Below, piece after piece: positions 23,927 through 33,126 of a stretch of 64,000 bases of DNA (positions are counted from its first letter, which is position 1; every line of letters begins with the position of its first letter). The stretch comes from Pseudomonadota bacterium. Its GTDB lineage: Bacteria > Pseudomonadota > Alphaproteobacteria > Rhizobiales > Beijerinckiaceae. The notes beneath the pieces are model-generated. The model saw only the letters and a program-made list of their open reading frames with translations, was not told where the DNA came from and did no database searches. The position numbers and the translations under genes are program-made. Where the stretch lies: the NCBI GenBank assembly GCA_021813805.1, contig JAKAJL010000020.1:1-64000 (forward strand), given 5' to 3'.

Positions 23927-24469
23927 GATCCCCTCCTGTCGCGATGGCCTTCCTTGTGTCGCTCCGGGCGCGAAAGTCAAGCCTTGGCAATGCCGCCGCC
24001 ACGTTCTCCTTCGAGATGCGAAGCGTGAGGAACCTCAACCCGCGGGCGTTTCTTCCTTGGAATAATCGCAAGGCGTGGGCGGCCTCGCGACCGTCTGGAG
24101 TTCGGCAACGAAGGCTTCCGTCCGAGCGTGATGGCGACGGCAACGCCCTCGCCATGCCGAATTCTCGACAATGCCCGCGCGAAGCGGGTGGAAAAGACGG
24201 TGACGAACCAGACCGGCTCGCCCGTTTGCCGCATGGCGCGCTCCAATTCGTTTGGCTTGCGTTCAGGTTGCAAATCGTAGACTTCCCATATGGCGCCGCA
24301 CGCGGGTGACGGATTCCGTCGCTTGCCCAAATGCCGGACAGGCTTTTCGGCTCCACGACTAAGGACGGCGCCCCCGGCGCCGCCACGGGTAGGACGGCGG
24401 GCGATCCTGTGCTATGGCGAAGCCGGCCGGCGGAGGGCGGAGCGCCATCGGCGCGAGAGAGATCAGGCG
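23927..24469. other. Divergent intergenic region
   Basis: Over 500 bases between the tiny lipoprotein (minus) and the Pls-like gene (plus). No clear gene is present. A minus-strand frame from about 24330 to 23977 has only a TTG or an internal ATG (24234) as start. It contains protein-like text (GEPVWFVTVFSTRFARALSR) but ends in a low-complexity Arg/Pro/Gly tail. It could be a decayed gene. Promoters for both flanking genes must lie here, but no convincing -35/-10 pair was identified. Confidence 0.3.
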
Positions 24470-27400
24470 ATGACGGACAGCGATACGGAACTCTTGGTGA
24501 AGGAGCAGCCCGCGCCGGCGCGCCCGCCGCGCGCGCTGTCGGCGTTGCGCGGGGCCGTCCGTCCCGATCTGATCCGCGACGAACTGCTCGCCGAAATCTT
24601 CGCCGCCACAGTCGCGGCCGCGCCGCACGCCGTCGCCATGATGACCATGGAGCGCAAGCTGACCTACGCCCAGGTCGATCACGAGGCCTCGTCGATCGCG
24701 CGCGGCCTGGTTCGGCGCGGAATCGGCCCCGGCGACGTCGTCGGCCTGTGGGGGGCGCGCGGGCCGGAGCTTCTGATCTGCCAGATCGCCATCGCCAAGA
24801 CCGGAGCGGCCTGGTTGCCTTTCGACGCCGATGCGCCGCTCGACCGCATCGAAATCTCCCTGCTTGACGCCGAGGCCAAGGCCCTGCTGACCTCGGAAAG
24901 CTTCGCCGCCAAGGCGCGCGGCGCGATCACCGCGCCGGTGGTGACCGAAATCGACCTGATCGACCGCGTTGACCAGACGCCGCTCGATCCGCGCAAGGCG
25001 GGCGCGACGCCCGACACGCCCGCTTATCTCATCTACACCTCCGGTTCGACCGGGACGCCCAAGGGCATCGTCATCACCGGGCGCAACATCTGCCATTACC
25101 TTCGCTCGGCCAACGAAACATACAGGGTCAACAGGTCCGATATCGTCTTCCAGGGCGCCTCGATCGCCTTCGACCTGTCGATGGAGGAAATCTGGATTCC
25201 CTATCTCGTCGGCGCGACCCTTTTCGTCGCCACGCCCACGGTGATGGGCGAGGCCGAGGCGTTGCCCGAACTGATGGAGGAAGTCGGCGTCACCGTGCTC
25301 GACACGGTGCCCACCCTGTTGTCGCTGATGCCGCGCGACATCAAATCCTTGCGCGTCATCATTCTGGGCGGCGAGGCCTGCCCGCCGGCGGTCGCCGCGC
25401 GCTGGAGCAAGCCCGGCCGCACCATCTTCAACTCCTACGGTCCGACCGAAGCGACGGTGGTGGCGACCGTGGCGGAAGTGCGGCCGGACGAGCCGGTCAC
25501 CATCGGCGGGCCGATCGCCAATTACACCTGTTATGTCGCGGACGAGGCCAGCAACCTGCTCGAACGCGGGGTCGAAGGCGAACTTCTCATCGGCGGGCCG
25601 GGCGTGGCGCGCGGCTATCTCAGGCGCGACGCGCTGACGGCGGAAAAATTCATCGCCAATCCGTTCGATTCGACGGGGAGCGACCCGATTCTCTATCGCT
25701 CCGGCGACGCAGTGGTGATGGAGGCCGACGGCAAGATCGCCTTCCATGGCCGCATCGACGATCAAATCAAGATTCGCGGCTTTCGCGTCGAACTGGGCGA
25801 GATCGAGGCCAAGCTCTCCGGCCAGCCGGGCGTCAGCCAGGCGGCGGTGGTGCTGCGCAACGACGACGGTCTCGACCAACTCGTCGCCTTCCTCGTCGCC
25901 GACAAGGGCGAGGCGCTCGAGGCGAAGACATTGCGCGCCGCGCTGCGTGGCGTCCTGCCGCCCTACATGGTGCCGTCGCGCTATGAAACCCTCGACGCCC
26001 TGCCGCGCCTCGCCTCGGGCAAGGTCAATCGCAACGCCCTGAAGAAGGAGCAGTTGACCGCTCCGGCCGCCGCCGAGGCGCAGGAGGATCCCGAGACAGA
26101 AACCGAGCGCGTCCTGCTCGACGCCGCGCAAAAGGTCCTGCCGCCGCAGACCATCCCGCTGGAGGCCGATTTCTTCACCGATCTTGGCGGCCATTCGCTG
26201 CTTGCGGCGCGTTTCGTCTCGATCGTGCGCCAGACCCAGGACCTGGCGGGGATCACTCTTCAAGACGTTTACAACGGGCGATCCTTGCGCGCGATCGCCG
26301 CGATTCTCGACGAAAAGGCGGCGGAAACCGGCGGGCCAAAAGACCTCTCGTTCACGCCGCCGCCGCTCTACCGGCGCTTTCTGTGCGGCCTGGCGCAGGC
26401 TGCGGTCCTGCCCTTCCTGCTGGCGCTGTCCACCGCGCAATGGCTGAGCATTTTCGTCTCCTACATGCTGCTGACCGACACCGACGCCTCGATCTGGCAG
26501 GAAATCGCCGCCCTGCTCAGCGTCTATGTCTCGGTCAATATCGCCACCGTTCTGCTCGCCATCGCCGCCAAATGGCTGGTGATCGGCCGCTTCAGGCCCG
26601 GCCGCTATCCCATTTGGGGCGTCTATTATTTCCGCTGGTGGCTGGTCCAGCGCATGCTGACGCTGACCCATATCAAATGGTTCCAGGGCTCTCCGCTGAT
26701 GCGCCTCTATCTCATGGCCCTCGGGGTGAAAGTCGGCCAGGACGCCAATATTTCCGAGCTGGAGATCGGCGCCACCGATCTCCTGTCGATCGGCGCGCGG
26801 ACGACCGTCGGCGCCCGCGCCAATTTCTCCAATGTCAGCTTCATCGGCGCCGACATGATCGTTGGCAAGATCGAGGTCGGCCCGGAATGCAATATCGGTT
26901 CATCCTGCGTGCTCGAAAACGACGTCGTGATGGAGGAGGGCGCCGAGTTGCGCGACCTCACGGCGCTCGCGCCCTTCACCCGGGTCAACGCCTGGGAGAT
27001 CTGGGACGGCTCGCCCGGCCGTTTCGTCGGTTCGGTGGACAAGGAGACGCTCCGCCCCTTCCCCGAGGTTTCGGCGGCCAGGCGCGCCGTGCAGACCTTC
27101 CTCTATACCGTGATGCTGCTGGCGATCCCGCCGGTCGGCCTTCTGCCGCTGTTCCCGGCCTTCTGGGTGTTCGACCGCATCGACGAAACTCTCGGCCTCG
27201 CCGCCATGAGCCGCATGGCCTATATGGCCGCGATCCCGGTCATGGCATGGCCGACCTCCTTCGTCATGGTGCTGGTGACGGTCGGTTTCATCGCGGTCGT
27301 GCGCTGGACCGTGCTGCCGCGCGTGCGCGAAGGGCTCTATTCGGTCTTTTCCTGGTTCTACTTGCGCAAATGGGCGGTGGCGCTGGCGACCGAGATCACG

Positions 27401-28525
27401 CTCGAAACGCTGTCCTCGCTCTACGCCACCATCTATATGCGGGCGTGGTACCGGCTGATGGGCGCCAAGATCGGCAAGGATTCGGAGATTTCGACCAATC
27501 TCGCCGGCCGCTACGATCTGGTCGAGATCGGCGAGAAATGTTTCATCGCCGACGAGGTCATCCTCGGCGACGAGGAGGTGCGCCGCGGCTGGATGCGGCT
27601 GGAAAAGCTGCGCACCGGCTCGCGGGTGTTCATCGGCAATGACGGCGTGACGCCGCCCGGCGCCGACATCCCCGACGACACGCTGATCGGCATCAAGTCG
27701 AAGCCGCCGGCCAATGACGAGATTTCGCCCGGCGACACCTGGTTCGGCTCGCCGCCGATCAAACTGCCTGTGCGCCAGAAATTCGACGGCGGCGGCTCGA
27801 CGTGGACCTATGAGGCGCCGCGCTGGAAGAAATTCGCCCGCGCCGTCTTCGAGGCGGTTCACATCTCCTTGCCGACGATGCTGTTCATCACTTTCGGCAC
27901 CTGGGCGATCGAATGGTTCGGTCCGGCCATGCTGGAGGGCGCCTATCTTCGGGTGTTCTGGATGTTCGTCGCCGCCTCGACGGTGATCGCGGCGGTGATG
28001 ACCCTGATCGTCATCGGGGTGAAATGGGCGACCATGGGCCGCTACCAGCCGGTGACCAAGCCGATGTGGTCGTGGTGGGCGATGCGCACCGAGGCGGTGG
28101 CCGTGCTCTATTGGGGCCTCGCCGGCAAGGTCCTCCTCGACCATTTGCGCGGCACGCCCTTCCTGCCGTGGTTCCTGCGCCTGTTCGGCGCGAAATTCGG
28201 CCGGGGCTGCGTGCTCGACATGACCGACATCACCGAATTCGACTGTATCGAGGTCGGCGATTTCTGCAATCTCAACACGCTCTGCGCCCTGCAGACCCAT
28301 CTTTACGAAGACCGCGTGATGAAGGTCGGACGGGTCAGGCTCGGCTCGGGCGTCACCGTCGGCGCGGGCTCGACCGTTCTCTATGATTCCCACGTCGGCG
28401 ATTACGCCCGGCTCGGGCCGCTGACCATTGTGATGAAGGGCGAATCCATTCCCGCCCACACCGAATGGTCCGGCGCTCCCGCCGCGCCGACCCGGCATGT
28501 GACGCCGGGCTGTCCGGCGGCGTGA
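24470..28525 (+). CDS. Pls/PosA-type amino acid adenylating membrane synthetase
   Basis: A 1351-residue protein resembling epsilon-poly-L-lysine synthetase. The adenylation domain (about 45-520) has YTSGSTGTPKG (189-199), NSYGPTEATV near 320, YRSGD near 408, GRIDDQIKIRGFRVELGEIE near 426, and the catalytic Lys518 in ASGKVNRNAL. A carrier domain follows, with phosphopantetheine Ser576 in DLGGHSLLAARF. The rest repeats three times: membrane helices followed by a left-handed beta-helix (hexapeptide) domain, about residues 630-850, 870-1100 and 1125-1340. Pls has three tandem soluble domains flanked by membrane helices, so the layout agrees. No condensation or thioesterase domain is present. It probably makes isopeptide-linked homopolymers or dipeptides at the membrane; the product is unknown. 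Start 24470 was chosen over 24290. Confidence 0.85.
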   Translation: MTDSDTELLVKEQPAPARPPRALSALRGAVRPDLIRDELLAEIFAATVAAAPHAVAMMTMERKLTYAQVDHEASSIARGLVRRGIGPGDVVGLWGARGPELLICQIAIAKTGAAWLPFDADAPLDRIEISLLDAEAKALLTSESFAAKARGAITAPVVTEIDLIDRVDQTPLDPRKAGATPDTPAYLIYTSGSTGTPKGIVITGRNICHYLRSANETYRVNRSDIVFQGASIAFDLSMEEIWIPYLVGATLFVATPTVMGEAEALPELMEEVGVTVLDTVPTLLSLMPRDIKSLRVIILGGEACPPAVAARWSKPGRTIFNSYGPTEATVVATVAEVRPDEPVTIGGPIANYTCYVADEASNLLERGVEGELLIGGPGVARGYLRRDALTAEKFIANPFDSTGSDPILYRSGDAVVMEADGKIAFHGRIDDQIKIRGFRVELGEIEAKLSGQPGVSQAAVVLRNDDGLDQLVAFLVADKGEALEAKTLRAALRGVLPPYMVPSRYETLDALPRLASGKVNRNALKKEQLTAPAAAEAQEDPETETERVLLDAAQKVLPPQTIPLEADFFTDLGGHSLLAARFVSIVRQTQDLAGITLQDVYNGRSLRAIAAILDEKAAETGGPKDLSFTPPPLYRRFLCGLAQAAVLPFLLALSTAQWLSIFVSYMLLTDTDASIWQEIAALLSVYVSVNIATVLLAIAAKWLVIGRFRPGRYPIWGVYYFRWWLVQRMLTLTHIKWFQGSPLMRLYLMALGVKVGQDANISELEIGATDLLSIGARTTVGARANFSNVSFIGADMIVGKIEVGPECNIGSSCVLENDVVMEEGAELRDLTALAPFTRVNAWEIWDGSPGRFVGSVDKETLRPFPEVSAARRAVQTFLYTVMLLAIPPVGLLPLFPAFWVFDRIDETLGLAAMSRMAYMAAIPVMAWPTSFVMVLVTVGFIAVVRWTVLPRVREGLYSVFSWFYLRKWAVALATEITLETLSSLYATIYMRAWYRLMGAKIGKDSEISTNLAGRYDLVEIGEKCFIADEVILGDEEVRRGWMRLEKLRTGSRVFIGNDGVTPPGADIPDDTLIGIKSKPPANDEISPGDTWFGSPPIKLPVRQKFDGGGSTWTYEAPRWKKFARAVFEAVHISLPTMLFITFGTWAIEWFGPAMLEGAYLRVFWMFVAASTVIAAVMTLIVIGVKWATMGRYQPVTKPMWSWWAMRTEAVAVLYWGLAGKVLLDHLRGTPFLPWFLRLFGAKFGRGCVLDMTDITEFDCIEVGDFCNLNTLCALQTHLYEDRVMKVGRVRLGSGVTVGAGSTVLYDSHVGDYARLGPLTIVMKGESIPAHTEWSGAPAAPTRHVTPGCPAA

Positions 28526-28634: not shown

Positions 28635-29102
28635 ATGTCCAACGAAATTGACGCGATGCGGGTCTGGTTTCGACTCATTCGCCTTCATACCCGGTCCAGG
28701 GTCGCAATCGCGAACCGGCTGCGCGCCTTCGATCTTTCCGTCCCGCAATGCGACGTGCTCACCACCTTGACCGAGAAGGAAGGCCTGTCGCAGCAGGAGC
28801 TCGCCGCCCGGCTCTATGTCACCAAGGGCAATATTTCCGGCCTGGTCGATCGGCTCGTCGCCAATGGGCTGGTCGAGCGCCGCTCCTTCGCCGGCGACCG
28901 GCGCTCCCATGCGATTCATCTGACGCCGGCCGGACGCGATCTCGCCCAGCGGGCGATCGAGGCGCAGAGGAAATTTGTCGCCGAGACTTTCGGTCAGTTG
29001 CCGCCCCAGCGTCTCGCGGAATTCGAGCAACTGCTGGTCGAGGCGCGCGACTTGGTCCGCGCGCGCGGCGGCGCGGCGTCGCCCGAGGGGGTCGAAGCGT
29101 GA
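28635..29102 (+). CDS. MarR family transcriptional regulator
   Basis: A 155-residue winged-helix regulator. The helix-turn-helix is EKEGLSQQELAARLYVTKGN followed by ISGLVDRLVANGLVERR, and the wing is RRSFAGDRRSHAIHLTPAGR, typical of MarR. Such proteins repress their target until a small ligand or oxidant binds. There is no Cys in the DNA-binding part. The gene starts 109 bases after the Pls-like gene and is followed after 30 bases by an amidase, so these two probably form an operon. Control of the Pls-like gene is an inference from position only. Confidence 0.85.
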   Translation: MSNEIDAMRVWFRLIRLHTRSRVAIANRLRAFDLSVPQCDVLTTLTEKEGLSQQELAARLYVTKGNISGLVDRLVANGLVERRSFAGDRRSHAIHLTPAGRDLAQRAIEAQRKFVAETFGQLPPQRLAEFEQLLVEARDLVRARGGAASPEGVEA

Positions 29103-29132
29103 GTTCCGCCAGCGTGTCTGGGCGGTGAGCGA

Positions 29133-30575
29133 ATGGCGGCGGCGGGTTTCGACGAATCCTTTTTCGCAGCTTCTGCGTGCAAGTGGCGGCGCGGTCTACA
29201 AAAAGGCGACTATTCTCCGCGCGAACTTCTGGGCGCGGTGTGGGAGCGGATTCTCCAGCGCAATCCCCGGATCAACGCGCTCGCCGCCTATGATCACGAC
29301 TCCGCCCTGCGCCAGGCGGACGAGGCCGAAAGGCTTTTCGCGCGCGGCGAATCGCGGCCGCTGGAGGGCCTGCCGATCACCGTCAAGGACAGTTTCGAGA
29401 CGGCGGGACTGCTGACGACCTGCGGCGCCGAAACGCTCGCCGAATATGTCCCGCGCGAGGACGCCGAGGCGGTCGCCCGTCTGCGCGCCGCCGGGGCGAT
29501 CATTCTCGCCAAGACCAATGTCCCGCGCCTCACCGCTGATTTCCAGACCTTCAACGCGCTGTTCGGCGTGACCTGCAATCCCTGGGACGAGAGGCTCACG
29601 CCGGGCGGTTCGTCGGGCGGCGCGGCGGCGGCGGTCGCATTGGGTTTCGGCGCTTTCGACCTCGCCTCCGACCTTGGCGGCTCGATCCGCTGGCCCGCCC
29701 AGGCCTGCGGCGTCTTCGGGCTCAAGCCGAGCTGGGGGCAGGTTTCGCTCGCCGGCCATATCCCGCCGCTGCCGCCGCTGCGATTGAAAAATCCGCCCGA
29801 TCTCGCGGTCGCGGGACCCCTGGCGCGCTCGGCGGCGGACCTCGATCTGGTCCTGTCGCTCGCGGAGAATCCAAGCCATGCAGGCGCGGCGCCGCGCAGG
29901 AAAAATCCCGCGGACCTCAGGCTCGCGCTCTGGCTCGATCCGGATTTCGCGCCGGTCGATCCTGATGTGGAGGCCGGCGTGCGGTTGGCGGCGCGGATTT
30001 TCCACGACGCCGGCGCCATGGTGGCTGAGGCCGCGCCCGCCTTCGCCTTCGCCGAGGCCTTCGAAATATACGTGACGCTCAACTTCGCCATCGGCTTCGC
30101 CGGAGCGCCACAGGAAAAAGCGCGCTTCGCGGCCGAGGCGGAAAAATTCGACCGCGACGATCGCTCCTATCCCGCCTTGCGCGCGCGGGCCGCGAAGCTG
30201 GACGCGGCGACCTTTTCCGTTCTGGCCGAGCGCAGAAAAGCGATCGGCGCAGCCTTTGCCCGTTTTTTCGAGCGTTTCGACGCGATCCTCTGCCCGCCCG
30301 CGCCCTGCCTGGCCTTCCCGCACGATTTTTCGCCCGACCCCTTTTCGCGCCGTCTTCCCGTCGGCGCAGGCGCCTTGCCCTATCATGACCTGCTGAAATG
30401 GGCGGGCCTTGCCTCGCTCGCCCTGCTGCCGGCGGCGGTGGCGCCGGTCGCGCTGACCCCGAGGGGCCAACCGACCGGGGTCCAGATTATTTCCGCGCGC
30501 GGCGAGGATCGGATGGCCGTCGGGCTCGCCGGCATGATCGAACAGGCGACCGGCGGTTTTCGCGCCCCGAAGTGA
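29133..30575 (+). CDS. Amidase (amidase-signature family)
   Basis: A 480-residue amidase-signature hydrolase. The Ser-cisSer-Lys triad is visible: Lys85 in PITVKDSFE, Ser160 in the GGSSGGAAAAVALG signature, and the nucleophile Ser184 in DLGGSIRWPAQACG. The C-terminal part has ILCPPAPCLAFPHD and GLASLALLPAAVAPVALTP. It would hydrolyse a C-N amide bond; the substrate is not readable, and GatA is unlikely because gatB and gatC are absent nearby. It follows the MarR gene by 30 bases. Position beside the Pls-like synthetase makes an amide or polypeptide substrate worth testing. Confidence 0.85.
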   Translation: MAAAGFDESFFAASACKWRRGLQKGDYSPRELLGAVWERILQRNPRINALAAYDHDSALRQADEAERLFARGESRPLEGLPITVKDSFETAGLLTTCGAETLAEYVPREDAEAVARLRAAGAIILAKTNVPRLTADFQTFNALFGVTCNPWDERLTPGGSSGGAAAAVALGFGAFDLASDLGGSIRWPAQACGVFGLKPSWGQVSLAGHIPPLPPLRLKNPPDLAVAGPLARSAADLDLVLSLAENPSHAGAAPRRKNPADLRLALWLDPDFAPVDPDVEAGVRLAARIFHDAGAMVAEAAPAFAFAEAFEIYVTLNFAIGFAGAPQEKARFAAEAEKFDRDDRSYPALRARAAKLDAATFSVLAERRKAIGAAFARFFERFDAILCPPAPCLAFPHDFSPDPFSRRLPVGAGALPYHDLLKWAGLASLALLPAAVAPVALTPRGQPTGVQIISARGEDRMAVGLAGMIEQATGGFRAPK

Positions 30576-31964: not shown

Positions 31965-32897
31965 TTACGCGACGCCCATCAGGGTGAGGACATGGGCCGC
32001 GACCGACCGCGACAGCCCGTCGAGATCATAGCCGCCTTCGAGGACGGAAACGACGCGCCCGCCGCAATTGCGGTCCGCGGCGTCCATCAGTTTCGCCGTG
32101 GCCCAGGCGAAATCGGCCTCGACCAGATTGATATTGGCGAGCGGATCTCGGCGGTGGGCGTCAAATCCGGCGGAAATGATCAGCAGGTCGGGCCGGAACC
32201 GATCCAGCCGGGGCAGGATCGCCACCTCCATCGCCTCGCGGAACTGGGGGCCAGAGTCTCCCGCGCAGAGCGGCGCATTGACGATATTGTTGTATTCGCC
32301 GCGCTCCGCAATCGATCCCGTGCCGGGATAGAGCGGCATTTCATGGGTCGAAAGATACATGACATTGGGGTCGGACCAGAAAATGTCCTGGGTCCCGTTG
32401 CCATGGTGGACGTCGAAATCCATGATCGCGACACGGCCCGCGCCGTGGACGGCGATGGCGTGGCGGGCGGCGACGGCGGCGTTGTTGAAGAAGCAGAAGC
32501 CCATCGGCGTGGCGCGTTCGGCGTGATGGCCCGGCGGCCTCATGGCGACGAAGGCGTTGTCCACTTCGCGGCGCATCACCTCGTCGACGGCCTGACAGGC
32601 GCCGCCGATCGCGCGGAAGGCGGCCGCCAGCGTGCCGGAGCTCATCGTGGTGTCGCTGTCGAGCCGGGCAAGGCCGTCGCGCGGCGACACCTCCTCCAGC
32701 GCCTGGATATATGATTCGGGGTGGACCCGAAGCGCCATTTCGCGCGTGCCGTTCGCGGCCTGGGCGCGAATCAGCGTCATGAATTTTTCATGTTCCAGTA
32801 TGCGTTCGATGACCCGAACACGATCAGGCCGCTCGGGATGGCCGGGTCCGTTGTCGTGAGAAAGGCCAGCGGGATGGGTAAGCAGCAAAGTGTTCAA
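31965..32897 (-). CDS. Histone deacetylase family protein (AcuC/APAH-like)
   Basis: A zinc-dependent deacetylase-fold hydrolase of about 310 residues. Family marks are LLLTHPAGLSHDNGPGHPER near the N-terminus, MRPPGHHAE with the catalytic His pair, the zinc ligands in DFDVHHGNGTQD, and SAGFDAHRRDPL. It would act on acetylated amines, polyamines or protein lysines in the cytoplasm. The start is uncertain: the TTG at 32897 fits the family start, while the open frame extends to another TTG at 33011, giving 348 residues with a basic leader. There is no ATG in a good position. Confidence 0.85.
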   Translation of the reverse strand: MNTLLLTHPAGLSHDNGPGHPERPDRVRVIERILEHEKFMTLIRAQAANGTREMALRVHPESYIQALEEVSPRDGLARLDSDTTMSSGTLAAAFRAIGGACQAVDEVMRREVDNAFVAMRPPGHHAERATPMGFCFFNNAAVAARHAIAVHGAGRVAIMDFDVHHGNGTQDIFWSDPNVMYLSTHEMPLYPGTGSIAERGEYNNIVNAPLCAGDSGPQFREAMEVAILPRLDRFRPDLLIISAGFDAHRRDPLANINLVEADFAWATAKLMDAADRNCGGRVVSVLEGGYDLDGLSRSVAAHVLTLMGVA

Positions 32898-33126
32898 TTC
32901 TGGCTCACAAACAGGAACAGTCGTTTTCGGCCCGAAAACCGCCTTCGAAGACTTAGCGAGGGCGGCGGCTGACGCCCGGATCCTTTTCTTTCGTTGCGAA
33001 CATCGCGCCAATCGGCGCGCCTGTCCAACAAAGTTTAGGCCTTAGACCGAAAGTTTTAGCTTTCGGCGCTCCTCATCGAAATTTGATCGCCTTTTCGACC
33101 TCTTGACTATAGCGTGGCCGCGCCAC

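Follow-up and report, generated by a model that had tools for sequence, protein, structure and literature searches.

The subject of this analysis is a gene of 1351 codons at positions 24470..28525 of a 64,000-nucleotide stretch of DNA (hereafter "the window", meaning that whole stretch) from a bacterium of the family Beijerinckiaceae (assembly GCA_021813805.1, contig JAKAJL010000020.1). All coordinates refer to the window, and all features lie on the + strand unless another is given. The gene was confirmed to encode a nonribosomal peptide synthetase (NRPS)-like enzyme of the Pls/PosA family. The protein is likely a synthetase of a cationic homopoly(amino acid); the best-known product of such synthetases, epsilon-poly-lysine, is a food preservative. 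The architecture, the family membership, the letters of the adenylation pocket, and the conservation of that pocket and of a patch in the third membrane unit were established by computation. A nearly identical pocket type, from rhizobia, Methylobacterium, and others, was printed in 2023 with its substrate unknown, and the idea is to that extent an older one. New here are the finding that this pocket (termed DLED for its first four letters) marks one well-supported branch of the membrane domain, its counts across family loci, and the invariant residues of the third unit.

Gene and domain architecture

The gene was delimited using its open reading frame, the NCBIfam profile TIGR02353 and an alignment of homologues. 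In the frame reading of the window, the ATG at 24470 opens an uninterrupted frame of 1351 residues. An alternative in-frame ATG at 24290 would lengthen the protein by 60 residues; the start at 24470 was preferred because the nearest homologues (L032, L033, and L034) align from its residue 1. By identity, the closest named homologues were those of Rhodoblastus sp. BP08 (84%) and R. acidophilus (79-80%).

Pfam families scoring over their cut-offs were AMP-binding (residues 45-384), AMP-binding_C (residues 444-518), and PP-binding (residues 549-612); in the same scan of the protein, condensation and thioesterase families were not found, and the Hexapep and DCTN5 matches stayed below cut-off. The adenylation domain occupies residues 36-530, approximately (24575..26059), as judged from Pfam, the alignment to PosA, and an AlphaFold2 model. 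It is followed by the carrier domain (26114..26305; Pfam and a ten-sequence alignment), the serine of which (Ser576, 26195-26197) was identical in 10/10 aligned sequences, i.e. the window's and nine others. TIGR02353 (NRPS_term_dom) covers residues 642-1338 (26393..28483) at 596.1 bits, compared to a cut-off of 423.1, and the synthetase is the sole match to this profile in its 3.67 Mb genome. A TIGR02353 score over cut-off, one adenylation and one carrier domain, three membrane units, and the pocket acids Asp235 and Glu239 place the protein in the family. A preliminary description of the gene, made from its letters, had read an adenylation domain and a carrier domain with Ser576, with no condensation or thioesterase domain, and had likened the whole to Pls; the layout was borne out, and the likeness holds at the level of the family, given the TIGR02353 score, the predicted models, and the PDB match described below.

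Three kinds of characterized relatives served for comparison. PosA, the delta-poly-L-ornithine synthetase of Acinetobacter baumannii (PDB 8G95-8G98; PMC10522769), has the same domain order and the closest solved adenylation domain. Pls, the epsilon-poly-L-lysine synthetase of Streptomyces albulus, shares the architecture (PMC10522769) and a homologous adenylation domain, which was ranked only 43rd by Foldseek (PDB 7WEW, 37% identity). The synthetases of poly-diaminopropionate (PDAP) and poly-diaminobutyrate (PDAB) share the family and the architecture (PMC10522769).

Adenylation pocket and candidate substrates

The pocket code was read from an alignment to the sequence of the PosA crystal structure that is free of gaps in the pocket stretch. 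It is D-L-E-D-I-G-S-V-V-K, and comprises Asp235, Leu236, and Glu239 (25172..25186), Asp278 (25301..25303; His260 in PosA), Ile298 and Gly300 (25361..25369; positions 299 and 301 in GrsA numbering), Ser322 (25433..25435), Val330 and Val331 (25457..25462), and Lys518 (26021..26023; GrsA 517). The code previously aligned by eye, D-L-E-D-I-L-S-V-V-K, was right at nine of the ten positions; the sixth letter is Gly, not Leu. The adenylation domain was modeled with AlphaFold2 from a 16-row alignment (mean predicted local distance difference test, pLDDT, 85.4), and the best PDB match of the model in Foldseek was PosA 8g95 (44% identity, root-mean-square deviation 1.8 Å over 406 columns, template-modeling (TM) score 0.95 by target length). 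Over residues 180-525, identity was 45.6-57.1% to six rows with PosA-type pockets vs. 45.0-47.8% to five rows with lysine-type pockets, and the highest values among the former belonged to the three DMEHNGTVSK rows. From this listing of identities and codes, L147 and L162 (fragments) and L001 (the window) were excluded; L116, L117, L136, and L141 have no readable pocket.

Published work on PosA bears directly on these letters. Its Asp217 and Glu221 (positions 235 and 239) are essential, as loss of either abolished activity, and Glu221 binds the side-chain amine of the substrate; Thr304 (322) and Ser313 (331) contribute, with loss of Ser313 lowering efficiency 183-fold; Met218 (236) influences chain-length preference; and His260 (278) makes no contact to the ligand (PMC10522769). 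The window pocket has residues identical to those of PosA at 235, 239, 301, 330, and 517; both essential acids are therefore kept, as is a hydroxyl at 322, while the hydroxyl at 331 is lost and Asp stands at 278. The pocket accordingly supports a basic substrate, as had been proposed. It is not the pocket of PosA sensu stricto, since DMEHNGTVSK differs from it at 236 (Met/Leu), 278 (His/Asp), 299 (Asn/Ile), 322 (Thr/Ser), and 331 (Ser/Val); ornithine remains compatible as a substrate. Likewise, the window pocket does not have the Ala236 that is found in Pls (PMC10522769), and lysine remains compatible.

The preliminary description had argued from a "doubly acidic" pocket. Both residues, Glu239 and Asp278, are present, but the argument is weaker than was supposed: the PosA residue at 278 lies off the ligand, and the pair occurs in published codes for several substrates, namely DGEDHGTVVK (Lys), DMEDVGSVDK (among Orn codes, said to accept Lys also), and a cluster of Arg domains (PMC12283262). 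The pair thus singles out no one substrate. Loci of Methylosinus carry DLEDVGSVVK, which is two of ten places from the Orn/Lys code DMEDVGSVDK (PMC12283262). On the basis of the retained acids, Asp278, and the nearness to published Orn/Lys codes, the candidates were ranked ornithine, lysine, arginine. L-Ornithine would be the most probable single substrate, an assignment that falls short of a firm one, and L-lysine is a possible second choice.

Arginine, which the preliminary description had overlooked, enters through the published Arg domains, whose cluster (Asp235, Ala/Val236, Glu239, Asp278, Ile/Val/Leu299, Gly301, Ala322, Val/Ile330, Thr/Asp331; PMC12283262) resembles the window pocket. 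Moreover, a member of the family with the code DSECYGGVTK was modestly active on Arg and not on the diamino acids tried (PMC10522769). Activation of L-arginine, or of some other guanidino or modified diamino acid, would be expected to yield an arginyl conjugate or an oligo-arginine with alpha linkages, because arginine has no free side-chain amine for an isopeptide chain. Leu236, Ser322, and Val331 depart from the Arg cluster, however, and the nearest solved relative is PosA; arginine is thus rather unlikely.

Diaminobutyrate was also among the substrates originally suggested, together with lysine and ornithine, and has lost ground to these two. Leu236 is bulkier than the Ala of the lysine enzymes, which would suit 2,4-diaminobutyrate or 2,3-diaminopropionate, but the PDAP and PDAB synthetases are marked by Phe at 236 (PMC10522769), and a separate branch of the membrane-domain tree described below holds 14 of the 15 rows in which Phe or Tyr occupies that position. 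The diaminobutyrate transaminase profile TIGR00709 was below cut-off in the window's own genome (best 123.4 vs. 401.6 bits; other routes were not searched). Either diamino acid is quite improbable as the substrate.

Several points weigh against the preferred reading of a cationic homopolymer, most likely of ornithine. Val331 stands where PosA has its contributing Ser313, and 236, 278, 299, and 322 differ as well; Leu236 would crowd lysine, and the lysine homopolymer enzymes have Ala there; and the published Arg domains share Glu239, Asp278, Ile/Val/Leu299, and Gly301 (PMC12283262). In the literature searched, members of the DLED branch appear with neither a product nor an assay nor an expression result. 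Homologues from archaea, rhizobia, Methylobacterium, and others that carry the code "D L E D I G T V T/V/I K" were listed in 2023 with the substrate unknown, and the Results text of that paper describes assays of no member of this class (PMC10522769). The window pocket matches the class at nine of ten positions, having Ser for Thr at 322; both residues occur at this position within the DLED branch. A literature word search for "DLEDIG" returned zero occurrences, although codes printed with spaces, as in PMC10522769, escape such a search.

Membrane domain and proposed reaction

The membrane domain was modeled from a 49-row alignment (pLDDT 91.8, predicted TM score 0.91). The model features three units, each with long helices followed by a left-handed beta-helix: C1 (26354..27061), C2 (27068..27781), and C3 (27809..28489). 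Comparison of the unit profiles in hhalign gave probabilities of 100, 100, and 99.7 (E-values 3e-42, 1e-40, and 1e-26), compared to 0.6% for a single control with shuffled columns. The three repeated units of membrane helices and beta-helix that had been seen in the sequence were thus recovered by model and profile alike. A plain hydropathy scan recovered five of the six long helices and missed one, the first in C3. For PosA, a membrane-domain model with approximate three-fold symmetry has already been published (PMC10522769). Comparison of the window model to the PDB in Foldseek gave partial matches only, none of them to a solved structure of the entire domain; the proteins matched were hexapeptide acetyltransferases (for serine and maltose), gamma-carbonic anhydrases, and their relatives (best E-value 5e-5; TM by query 0.09-0.15 among the 50 rows shown).

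Twenty-six positions were invariant in 49/49 rows: seven in unit 1, five in unit 2, and fourteen in unit 3. Those of unit 3 include Glu1208, Thr1229, Gln1275, His1277, Glu1280, Lys1285, Tyr1305, and Lys1323, and an invariant Gln-x-His-x-x-Glu motif is located in this unit. In the profile alignments of the window, the place of His1277 is taken by Val in unit 1 and by Glu in unit 2. The stretch with Gln1275, His1277, Glu1280, and Lys1285 (28292..28324) is a candidate active-site patch, and C3 probably houses a single active site, in the surroundings of His1277, Glu1280, and Glu1208. This site was proposed solely from conservation, and a counterweight to it is that unit 1 also has invariant residues (Gln643, Lys701, Trp724, and Asp770 among them), of which Gln643, Lys701, and Asp770 are polar; part of the invariant residues of the membrane domain may be structural.

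The following reaction scheme is proposed. The adenylation domain would activate a basic L-amino acid with ATP and load it onto the phosphopantetheine arm at Ser576. The three fused units, each a helix pair with a left-handed beta-helix, would then link the activated units into a short polycation; by analogy with the characterized relatives, the linkage would run through side-chain amines, and the joining would fall to the one site in C3. The substrate, the type of linkage, the active site, and the length of the chain were all inferred, and so was the role in the cell.

Within the DLED branch, seven genomes (G122, G199, G233, G250, G268, G329, and G383) have a gene resembling phosphopantetheinyl transferases (PPTases) next to that of the synthetase, and such genes also lie beside synthetase genes of the PosA, lysine, and DFE types. 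These neighbors were found with a profile built from such neighbors; Pfam was run on two of them (L168 and L173), and both agree. Of the neighbors that recur across branches, only the PPTase-like gene is a plausible functional partner. Telling against the scheme, a PPTase gene was not found near the window's own synthetase; two genes of the ACPS family are present in its genome on other contigs.

Distribution, neighborhood, and possible cell role

TIGR02353 was over cut-off in 99/149 genomes of the window's family. Of 100 loci from the family, 96 had the code DLED[ILV]G[ST]VVK, two had DFEAL codes, and two were unreadable (G105 and G134, cut by contig ends); DLEDIGSVVK was found in 6/6 genomes sampled from the window's genus, one of which is its own. 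In a draw from the order, 31/199 genomes were over cut-off, seven of them from the window's own family, and the first loci of the other 24 were DLED (7), DMEH (PosA-type; 2), DAES (3), DFE or DYE (8), DGES (1), or unreadable (3; L116, L117, and L136). The class draw yielded 9/289 genomes, four from the own family (the other five: one DLED, two DAES, one DFEH, one masked), and the phylum draw 24/299. From these draws, the synthetase type is common in its own family and rare outside it. An earlier count of the pocket using a DNA pattern (10/199) was discarded, because only TCN serine codons were allowed and the count was too low. A frame of 3474 residues in G391 (L141) was rejected as a megasynthetase, as it crosses masked Ns and its pocket is unreadable.

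Given a pocket kept in 96 of the 100 family loci, a frame open over all 1351 codons, and 79-84% identity to the Rhodoblastus homologues named above, it is very improbable that the gene is decayed or silent and its product inactive, a reading favored by the fact that no expression data were seen.

A tree of the membrane domain (residues 625-1340) was calculated for 68 of 160 rows by a quick method; it is unrooted, and the long branches of L161, L143, L139, L132, and others are unsurely placed. A branch with a Shimodaira-Hasegawa-like approximate likelihood-ratio test (SH-aLRT) support of 99 sets apart all 37 DLED rows, together with the masked row L141 and the truncated row L136, the pockets of which are unreadable. 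Three changes of the DLED label were counted on the tree, two of which are extra ones from L141 and L136, labelled "other". Pocket and membrane domain have thus been conserved as a pair. Rows of the PosA, lysine, and DFE types fall outside the DLED branch; the PosA-type rows do not form one group, and PosA itself is not in the tree. Among the rows listed, the membrane-domain identity of DFE/DYE rows to the window was 22.6-29.8%.

Some other pockets were noted in the same survey. L132 (G150, same order) has DGESVSVVNK, one letter off the epsilon-poly-beta-lysine synthetase code DGESISVVNK (PMC10522769). L161 (G806, same class) has DSECYGGVTK, which is also the code of the Bdellovibrionales enzyme that reportedly acts on arginine (PMC10522769), and its membrane domain is below the TIGR02353 cut-off. 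Ala236 lysine-type pockets (DAESVGTVVK or DAESIGTVIK) are found in L137, L138, L140, L144, and L145 of the same order or class; PPTase-like genes lie near L137, L138, and, weakly, L145.

Neighborhoods were compared in 80 named loci that had been found with a pattern holding the pocket letters AFDLSMEE and are hence unusable for counting codes; L169 (masked) was set aside in the clustering of neighbors. Carriers among the 80 include Methylosinus, Methylocella, Methylocapsa, Beijerinckia, Methylobacterium, Bosea, Chelatococcus, Azospirillum, and Telmatospirillum. A histidine-phosphatase gene of the same strand precedes the synthetase by at most 400 bases in 41/80 loci, 33 of which have fabI upstream as well (distances were taken between stop-to-stop frames, and loci short of upstream DNA were scored as misses). 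The window has the same neighbor genes, yet ca. 3.7 kb lies between phosphatase and synthetase, occupied by an enoyl-CoA hydratase, an acyltransferase_3, and a prephenate-dehydrogenase-like gene. Histone-deacetylase-like genes (31/80) and L,D-transpeptidase genes (24/80) are frequent downstream neighbors, for which no functional link to the synthetase is claimed; Azospirillum loci have a fumarase gene downstream instead. The histone-deacetylase-family gene of the window (31965-33011, - strand) might, as a guess, encode an acetylpolyamine amidohydrolase. Directly downstream of the synthetase are a MarR-type regulator and an amidase (28635-30575, + strand), a pair that also follows it in L032, L033, L034, and L059 (Rhodoblastus). 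In one genome (G340), a VirJ-family gene lies directly downstream of a DLED synthetase (L163); paper titles name VirJ and AcvB as lysyl-phosphatidylglycerol hydrolases. As a partner of the DLED type, the VirJ-like gene was dropped, since it was seen in that genome only (L163 and L131).

It is unlikely that the enzyme makes no polymer and hands one or a few amino acids to an acceptor in the membrane or envelope, such as a lipid or amino-hopanoid. The membrane-bound domain with its partial fold matches to acyltransferases speaks for such a transfer, as does the wide presence of the gene, often in one chromosomal place, which suggests a structural or housekeeping role. On the other hand, the characterized relatives make homopolymers (PMC10522769), and among the identified recurring neighbors fabI alone counts as a lipid-modifying enzyme, several neighbor clusters being unnamed. 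Concerning hopanoids, 44 of 97 carrier genomes of the family had no squalene-hopene cyclase match (E-values up to 1e-60), and 19 of 52 others had one; the association is weak at most (odds ratio 2.1, Fisher p = 0.04, kinship uncorrected), and a hopanoid link was dropped as a general function.

The DLED branch is carried by many relatives of the window's bacterium, and these often keep the synthetase gene in one chromosomal place. Because the pocket is present in 96/100 family loci and 6/6 genomes of the genus, often in that one place, the distribution suggests that the DLED synthetase serves a standing cell function more than it makes an occasional antibiotic. A broader proposal, to be held tentatively, is that the polycation of this branch (of ornithine, lysine, or an unreported substrate) may be a standing, vertically inherited component of purple, methanotrophic, and nitrogen-fixing alphaproteobacteria, and that the membrane domain may form amide bonds as a pseudo-trimer whose one catalytic histidine site lies in the third unit. 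The conserved residues of that unit are targets for the study of amide-bond formation without a condensation domain, a question left open in PMC10522769. An active DLED branch would make a polycation a widespread trait among methanotrophs, purple bacteria, Azospirillum, and relatives of Methylobacterium.

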